From positions 62,001-126,000 of the forward strand of contig JAUIFF010000009.1 in the NCBI GenBank assembly GCA_030429545.1: DNA of 64,000 nt, in the 5' to 3' direction. The position numbers and the translations under genes were made by a program. Below, piece by piece: positions 43,763 through 45,302 of this stretch. The stretch comes from Polyangia bacterium (lineage in GTDB: Bacteria > Myxococcota_A > Polyangia > Nannocystales > Nannocystaceae). The notes below the pieces were generated by a model that was not told where the DNA came from, searched no databases, and saw only the letters and a list, made by a program, of their open reading frames with translations. Position 1 is the stretch's first letter, and every line of letters begins with the position of its first letter.

Positions 43763-43795
43763 TTGACACTATCGTTCTTTCAGTAGATTCTGAAA
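43763..43795 (+). promoter_or_regulatory. TTGACA -35 box and operator TTTCAG-N6-CTGAAA of the GbsR-like gene
   Basis: A perfect -35 hexamer TTGACA (43763-43768) is followed 17 bp later by a weak -10 (GATTCT). The inverted repeat TTTCAG-TAGATT-CTGAAA (43778-43795) covers the -10 and ends 9 bp before the regulator ATG. A binding protein here would block transcription, consistent with autorepression. Confidence 0.68.
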
Positions 43796-43804
43796 ATCAA
43801 GAAG

Positions 43805-44326
43805 ATGGCGACAGAAGTTCAACAACTCGCGCAGATCCGCGAGCGCTTTATTGGCCAGTGGGGCACCTTTGGCTCAGCCTGGGGCATCCCCCGCACGATG
43901 GCGCAGATCCATGCGTTGTTGCTGATGAGCGACGAATCACTGTCGACCGACGAGGTCATGGACGCCCTGCACATTAGTCGCGGCAACGCCAATACCAACC
44001 TTCGCGAGCTCGTGGGGTGGGGCCTGGTCTACAAGCGTCACCGCCGGGGTGAGCGACGCGAGTACTTTGAGGCCGAAAAAGATGTATGGACAATCTTTTG
44101 TACGGTCGCCCGCGAACGCAAGCGCCGCGAGGTTGAGCCCGCGCTCAACCTACTGCGTGACTGTGTGCAGTTGACCGCGAGCATGCGGACCAAACAGGGC
44201 AAGGCATTTCACAAGCAGATGCAAAAACTCGCCGAATTCGTAGGGCTCGCAGCCTCGTTGATGGAGCGGCTTGCCGCGTCTGAGCGCAGCCGGGTGATCC
44301 CGGCATTGGTCAAGTTGCTGGCGTAG
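43805..44326 (+). CDS. GbsR/MarR family transcriptional regulator
   Basis: A 173-residue winged-helix regulator. IGQWGTFGSAWGIPRTMAQIHALLLMS is the GbsR-type dimerisation start, then a helix-turn-helix (STDEVMDALHISRGNANTNLREL) and wing (VYKRHRRGERREYFEAE). The C-terminal helices complete the dimer. Matching inverted repeats TTTCAG-N6-CTGAAA lie in its own promoter and before the next gene. It most likely represses itself and the membrane-protein/DUF393 pair. The inducer is unknown. Confidence 0.88.
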   Translation: MATEVQQLAQIRERFIGQWGTFGSAWGIPRTMAQIHALLLMSDESLSTDEVMDALHISRGNANTNLRELVGWGLVYKRHRRGERREYFEAEKDVWTIFCTVARERKRREVEPALNLLRDCVQLTASMRTKQGKAFHKQMQKLAEFVGLAASLMERLAASERSRVIPALVKLLA

Positions 44327-44359
44327 CGAATAGGTCACCACAAAAAATTTTGAACAAAA

Positions 44360-44379
44360 GTTTCAGAAAATTCTGAAAC
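44360..44379 (+). promoter_or_regulatory. Second GbsR-type operator, GTTTCAG-N6-CTGAAAC
   Basis: GTTTCAG-AAAATT-CTGAAAC is a perfect 7-bp inverted repeat with a 6-bp spacer, the same layout as the site at 43778-43795. It lies 32 bp before the membrane-protein ATG in an A+T-rich promoter region. Confidence 0.75.
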
Positions 44380-44410
44380 AATCGGATAGATAAGAAAAAG
44401 GAGAATGGAA

Positions 44411-44848
44411 ATGAGCATCGTCGTCATCGGCTACATCCTGTACCTGTTGATCAGCATCGCCCTCACGATTTGGGTTGCCCGCACGCTTCACCGCAACGGA
44501 CGCGTGTTTTTGGTGAGTGCCTTTCGCGGCGAGGAGGAGCTCGCCGACTCGGTCAACCACCTACTGGTGGTCGGCTTCTATCTCATCAACATCGGGTTTG
44601 TGACCCTCAACGTCCACGATTACTACGAACCTGAGAGCGTGCAGGGGTTGTTTGAGGTGCTCAGCCCCAAGATTGGGACTGTCCTGCTCACACTCGGTGC
44701 CATGCACTTTTTCAACATGTTTGTGTTTAGCCGGATGCGCAAGCGGGCCCGCCTGCTCGACGAGCCGCCGCCGGTCAACCCGACAGGACTGCTGCAACCT
44801 GCTCCGGTGCCCTACCGCGAGATGGTTGCCCGGGGACAGGGTGCCTGA
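44411..44848 (+). CDS. Conserved integral membrane protein
   Basis: A 145-residue protein with three or four hydrophobic segments (IVVIGYILYLLISIALTIWV, LLVVGFYLINIGFVTLNV, IGTVLLTLGAMHFFNMFVF). ATG 44411 is favoured over ATG 44405 by AGGAG placed 7 nt upstream. The FRGEEELADSVNHLLVVGFYL block is the likely conserved core. It is controlled by the operator at 44360-44379 and overlaps the DUF393 gene by 8 nt. The function is unknown. Confidence 0.78.
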   Translation: MSIVVIGYILYLLISIALTIWVARTLHRNGRVFLVSAFRGEEELADSVNHLLVVGFYLINIGFVTLNVHDYYEPESVQGLFEVLSPKIGTVLLTLGAMHFFNMFVFSRMRKRARLLDEPPPVNPTGLLQPAPVPYREMVARGQGA

Positions 44849-45302
44849 GGTGGCAATCTCAGCCCTATATGTCCTTTACGACAGCGAGTGCGGTCTCTGT
44901 GTTCGCTGTCGTCAATGGCTGTCACGCCAACCGATGTTGGTGCCACTACACTTTGTCCCGCTACACACACCGGGTCTGGGACAGATGTTTATGGGTATCG
45001 AACGCTACGAGCCGGGCAAGGAGATCGTTGTCGTCGCCGACACCGGTGCCGTGTACACCGGTGGTGCCGCTTGGATGATGTGCCTGTGGGCCCTCGAAAA
45101 CGGGCGCCCGTGGGCCCTGCGTTTGGCCAAGGCAGGGCTCGTTGGCGTGGTCAAACGCTTTTGCCTACTGGTCTCGAGCAATCGCCTACGGCTATCGGCC
45201 GCACTCGGGTTGGCTACCCCGCGGGCGTTGGGCGAGATCATCCACAATACGGCGGCGCCAACCTGTCCGGGTGCTCGCTGCGAAGTGACCCGAGCGGGAT
45301 AG
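44841..45302 (+). CDS. DUF393 thiol-disulphide-like protein
   Basis: A 153-residue thioredoxin-like protein from GTG 44841 (GTG 44850 possible). LYVLYDSECGLCVRCRQWL is the DUF393 signature with its CxxC redox pair. VVADTGAVYTGGAAWMMCLWAL is the conserved second block. DUF393 proteins are thought to be thiol-disulphide oxidoreductases. It overlaps the membrane-protein gene, so the pair is co-translated under GbsR-like control. Confidence 0.83.
   Translation: MPEVAISALYVLYDSECGLCVRCRQWLSRQPMLVPLHFVPLHTPGLGQMFMGIERYEPGKEIVVVADTGAVYTGGAAWMMCLWALENGRPWALRLAKAGLVGVVKRFCLLVSSNRLRLSAALGLATPRALGEIIHNTAAPTCPGARCEVTRAG

Follow-up and report, generated by a model that had tools for sequence, protein, structure and literature searches.

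A predicted GbsR-type autorepressor and its putative TTTCA-N8-TGAAA operators in Nannocystaceae and Verrucomicrobiota

The window, i.e. the whole stretch of 64,000 nucleotides of Nannocystaceae DNA analysed here, carries on its forward strand a gene for a 173-aa MarR regulator of the GbsR type (43805..44326; assigned by Pfam, NCBIfam, profile and AlphaFold/Foldseek). Downstream, at 44411..44848 on the same strand, lies a gene for a small membrane protein with three long helices, termed MP. The start at 44411 was preferred over 44405 because of a GGAG at 44400. MP contains no cysteine and belongs to no Pfam family, and a Foldseek search against the PDB gave no match to its fold. It is followed on the forward strand by the gene of a DUF393/DCC1-like thiol-disulfide oxidoreductase (44841..45302), which starts with a GTG at 44841 or 44850 and overlaps or abuts the MP stop. 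The latter protein matched PF04134 (E=1.1e-12; 49.6 bits, cut-off 27.8), carries the DxxCxxC motif as DSECGLC and is present as a single copy in its genome.

Two TTTCAG-N6-CTGAAA palindromes had been proposed at 43778-43795 and 44360-44379 in the initial annotation, and both sequences and positions were exact. The putative operator 1, TTTCAGTAGATTCTGAAA, occupies 43778..43795 (no strand assigned), reads TTTCAG-TAGATT-CTGAAA and is located 9 nt 5' of the regulator ATG (43805). It spans the -10 position of the regulator promoter (TAGATT, 43784-43789), the -35 box of which is a TTGACA at 43763..43768 (forward strand). The putative operator 2, TTTCAGAAAATTCTGAAA, occupies 44361..44378 (again no strand), reads TTTCAG-AAAATT-CTGAAA and is extended to 44360-44379 by a flanking G/C pair. 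It is situated 34 nt 3' of the regulator stop and 32 nt 5' of the likely MP ATG (44411). A weak and uncertain -35-like TTGAAC was noted 5' of it (44350..44355, forward strand); an obvious -10 for MP was not detected in the window. The arms are indeed identical while the spacers differ, as had been pointed out, and the palindrome extends into the inner bases: 7 of 9 positions are symmetric at site 1 and 8 of 9 at site 2. The window contained no further match to TTTCAG-N6-CTGAAA, even with two mismatches allowed. The window count at up to two mismatches is ordinary, as at least two matches were obtained in 41 of 100 shuffles. By chance, the 208 bp of intergenic DNA should hold about 2e-5 exact sites; one was found in each of the two regions which flank the regulator gene.

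Close orthologues of the regulator (55-65% identity) were identified in only five others among 59 related genomes, all from the family of the window; Nannocystis poenicansa, two Enhygromyxa salina strains and one Nannocystaceae MAG are among the records that matched. With each GTDB species represented by one genome, 372 relatives were retrieved, and the best 80 of these 372 were mostly from Verrucomicrobiota. Loci were selected by protein similarity alone without use of the motif. All spaced 5+5 dyads were then counted in 49 non-redundant loci (<80% identity), mostly Verrucomicrobiota, within 100 bp 5' of the regulator and 250 bp 3' of its stop. TTTCA-N8-TGAAA ranked first of 61,990 upstream dyads (34 of 49 loci) and also first of 170,908 dyads 3' of the regulator stop (22 of 49 loci). 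In shuffle controls it was never seen, and no dyad occurred more than three times. With one mismatch allowed, 41 of the 49 loci had the upstream site, 31 the downstream site and 28 both; the exact site is missing at one of the two places in about one third of the relatives. Alignment of 42 upstream regions on the palindrome gave the consensus TTTCAGTAatTAcTGAAA. In most of these 42 relatives the TTG of the -35 box is kept about 15 nt 5' of the palindrome, and the palindrome covers the -10, i.e. the promoter geometry is fixed. With the -10 covered and the -35 at a constant spacing, the site suggests repression. The motif had been taken for a specific binding site because of its matching arms. 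Its conservation in relatives shows that it is functional, and we infer that the regulator binds it. By sequence, then, TTTCA-N8-TGAAA is a predicted operator which occurs at the regulator's own and at the presumptive target promoter.

The dyad reaches beyond these relatives. Among distant myxococcal GbsR-type genes (25-38% identity) it was present with up to one mismatch in 10 of 24 upstream regions compared with 0.04 by shuffling. As a side observation, GbsR-type genes in other Myxococcota families (L040, L043, L044, L046) adjoin a gene for polyprenyl diphosphate synthase, and several carry the same palindrome; at L040 UbiD is a further neighbour. In a tree of 50 relatives a single long branch with full support united all regulators and separated them from other myxococcal GbsR-type proteins. 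The Nannocystaceae regulators branched among Verrucomicrobiota sequences near Opitutales (83/94, an open fork). This topology is compatible with a transfer between phyla, yet does not prove it.

The regulator matched PF12802 MarR_2 (E=3.5e-7; 30.7 bits, cut-off 27), which places it in the MarR superfamily. The match to CudC (NCBIfam NF047500; E=2.9e-14, 53 bits) was below the equivalog cut-off of 218. A profile built from six close relatives retrieved MJ223 (1KU9, E=7.4e-19), then Bcav_2135 (5JBR) and 4NB5. The AlphaFold model (pLDDT 85.8) consists of helices and a two-strand wing, and Foldseek returned the same three structures (1KU9 with E=1.1e-8), which thus are the closest solved ones by profile and fold. 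To our knowledge, neither operator nor target is known for any of them. The structural model of GbsR is based on MJ223 (PMC6207618). Because MJ223 is also the best profile match here, sequence and model place the regulator among the GbsR-type MarR regulators. In the osmostress subgroup (GbsR, OpuAR, CudC) the aromatic cage proposed for choline or betaine consists of six aromatic positions, i.e. 93, 94, 96, 97, 100 and 101 in OpuAR (PMC6207618). Placed by eye, in either register, the region around V94-W95-T96-I97-F98-C99 offers at most two of the six, and osmolyte sensing appears unlikely from these residues. Compatible-solute genes were absent beside the regulator, the neighbours, with those in relatives included, being MP, DUF393 and an SDR, and cydAB was absent beside it in the window. 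Likewise, the 60 downstream neighbours in relatives fell into 55 families, and the 25 of these that were listed included no cytochrome bd genes. C120 is present in 48 of 50 sequences and C99 in 31 of 50, which is no more than suggestive of redox sensing through cysteines.

What does the regulator control? In 78 loci with sufficient downstream sequence the next genes encoded a TIGR01777 SDR (46 loci), MP (26) or DUF393 (21); in a few an unrelated membrane protein, SRPBCC, DUF2071 or other small membrane proteins were found. At least one of these downstream genes was present in 68 of the 78 loci. In relatives the putatively regulated gene is equally often a TIGR01777 SDR without MP or DUF393, and fuller operons have the order regulator-MP-DUF393-SDR (L151, L153, L154, L158). 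In three of six Nannocystaceae, one of them from the genus of the window (G001), the operator precedes an unrelated membrane protein of about 210 aa (L034 6565, L036 6351, L037 6734). Here the target was exchanged while regulator and operators stayed. As the downstream gene is swapped within the same genus, the defining target cannot be the MP-DUF393 pair. Of the earlier proposal of a membrane thiol-redox pair the DUF393 half holds, as DxxCxxC is present in DUF393 of every relative checked. The MP half is not supported: the window's protein lacks cysteine, as do 15 of 40 aligned rows, many relatives possess the SDR only, and three Nannocystaceae have another protein. Among 60 wider neighbour proteins of the relatives no other function recurred except locally distributed 3D-domain and NMT1-like proteins. 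A photolyase/carotenoid light-stress cluster was considered and dropped, as these 60 proteins lent it no support.

The dependence of the sites on the regulator was examined in genomes in which MP and regulator are separated. Of 388 Verrucomicrobiota genomes searched for MP, 21 encode it. In four genomes MP and regulator reside on separate contigs, and in three of the four the palindrome precedes MP or its operon: two sites at MP in G065 (L150), one at MP in G312 (L156) and one at an SDR-MP operon in G282 (L162). Each of the three encodes the orthologous regulator on a different contig, and at least one operator is present next to that gene. In the fourth genome (G095) sites are missing both at MP and around the regulator. 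In G370 and G033 MP lacks a site and an orthologous regulator is missing as well. Numbers are small, yet this pattern of sequences supports the regulator as the probable binder. In G033 (C96; L057 1390-1480) two copies of TGAACACGTTCA precede an MP-DUF393 pair, and a TetR-like gene comes after it; there the pair is predicted to be under a different type of repressor.

A genome search for TTTCAG-N6-CTGAAA had been suggested in the initial annotation, with many unrelated copies as the outcome that would speak against a specific operator. That outcome was not obtained: the 8.6 Mb genome contains three exact copies compared with one for a reversed control. The relaxed TTTCA-N8-TGAAA occurs four times, two of them at the regulator locus, compared with six for the reversed control. 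As this does not exceed the control, the regulon beyond the locus is small, if it exists. The operator was absent, within one mismatch, from 1.5 kb flanks of the SDR genes of this genome (C24, C8). The third exact site (G000:C24:3822-3839; L001:1501-1518) is located in a gap about 60 nt 5' of a probable lipoprotein start; it may be due to chance or mark a third target.

We consider it highly probable that the regulator is a homodimeric GbsR-type repressor which acts on its own gene and on MP-DUF393 through TTTCA-N8-TGAAA, one dimer per palindrome, with joint release of both. At operator 1 the winged-helix dimer would cover the -10 of its own promoter and, by steric block, cause negative autoregulation; at operator 2 it would keep the MP-DUF393 operon downstream from being transcribed. 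An inducer would free both operators at once, and repressor and target would rise in parallel. MP and DUF393, in relatives together with the TIGR01777 SDR, would serve a single membrane-associated redox- or lipid-related function. As a tentative guess, the inducer may be an oxidant or a small molecule related to membranes or quinones. The initial annotation had already predicted an autoregulated repressor. Its GbsR/MarR type and the paired operators, conserved and also present in trans before the target, stand; binding and repression are what we infer from them.

Could the palindromes be bound by another, perhaps global, regulator, the adjacent regulator gene being incidental? The operator palindromes of many families resemble each other, and binding by the regulator is itself a prediction. 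However, a global regulator is difficult to reconcile with just four relaxed copies in 8.6 Mb, half of which are at the regulator locus. The site also tracks the orthologous regulator across genomes, even in trans, and the same dyad recurs at distant GbsR-type genes. This explanation is improbable. A marginally smaller chance is given to activation, or a dual action, from both sites. Some MarR proteins activate, and site position alone would be compatible with this. The placement over the -10 with the -35 at fixed distance argues for repression instead, and the characterised GbsR, OpuAR, CydE and CioR all repress (PMC7396694, PMC6207618, PMC6096048, PMC11837568).

RNA hairpins, i.e. a terminator or attenuator instead of operators, would suit the location of site 2 between the regulator stop and the next gene. 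Site 1 is inside the core promoter, where a full hairpin in the transcript is hardly possible. In addition, the stems are short and A/T-rich, a T-tract after site 2 is absent, and target genes in trans are preceded by sites as well. Hairpins are very improbable. A chance resemblance of two A/T-rich intergenic stretches, to which the ordinary window count at two mismatches might point, is refuted by the shuffle controls and by the recurrence of the sites across dozens of diverged loci; its probability is negligible.

An autoregulated MarR repressor with operators at its own and at the target promoter is a textbook design. GbsR, OpuAR and OpcR of Bacillus belong to the part of the GbsR family that deals with osmostress (PMC6207618, PMC7396694). 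With these the regulator shares the MarR-type winged helix, the MJ223-like fold, palindromic operators and a (here predicted) repression of neighbouring genes. It differs in that the targets are not osmoprotectant genes and the aromatic cage apparently is not conserved. In the GbsR operator as published, the half-sites of an A/T-rich inverted repeat are separated by 4 bp; the operator here reads TTTCA-N8-TGAAA. CydE and CioR, also of the GbsR type, repress cytochrome bd (PMC6096048, PMC11837568). Similarities are autorepression (predicted here) by a GbsR-type protein encoded next to its target and a respiratory or redox context; CydE also has two sites. Yet those of CydE are in one promoter region while here one is before and one after the gene, and the targets are MP, DUF393 and SDR instead of cydAB or cioAB. 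CrtR, the MarR-type repressor of carotenoid genes in Corynebacterium (PMC5401885), is also a PF12802 autorepressor, as predicted here, with a very small local regulon. Unlike the regulator under study it uses a TTAA motif, a divergent crt operon and isoprenoid pyrophosphates as inducer.

No description of this regulator branch, of the operator code or of the targets was found in the open-access literature, so that they appear to be undescribed. In titles and abstracts of the open-access papers found, neither TIGR01777 nor DUF393 was linked to a MarR/GbsR regulator, and papers with both GbsR and menaquinone name GbsR once each. The guess of two sites has become a predictive operator code, as the motif also precedes target genes away from the regulator. 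MP, a conserved and unnamed protein, DUF393 and the TIGR01777 SDR gain a regulatory context, and with a derepressed mutant their function could be tested. There is also a hint that, outside Bacillus, regulators of the GbsR type act in respiration and membrane chemistry and not in osmostress. More speculatively, and with less confidence than in the inducer class above, a separate, undescribed GbsR-type branch in Verrucomicrobiota and Nannocystaceae may run an MP/DUF393/TIGR01777 SDR module via TTTCA-N8-TGAAA. The half-site code, with variants, is also found near Myxococcota quinone genes (polyprenyl diphosphate synthase, menF-menD), and the whole group might sense a quinone or membrane-redox signal.

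The genome of the window contains a second GbsR-type gene (G000:C28:60061-60628; L052 3897-4630), divergent from menF- and menD-like genes (Chorismate_bind, TPP enzyme). Two variant palindromes, TTGTTCA-N8-TGAACAA, are located between or over the starts of these genes. This gene is a paralogue with an operator variant of its own and possibly controls menaquinone synthesis.
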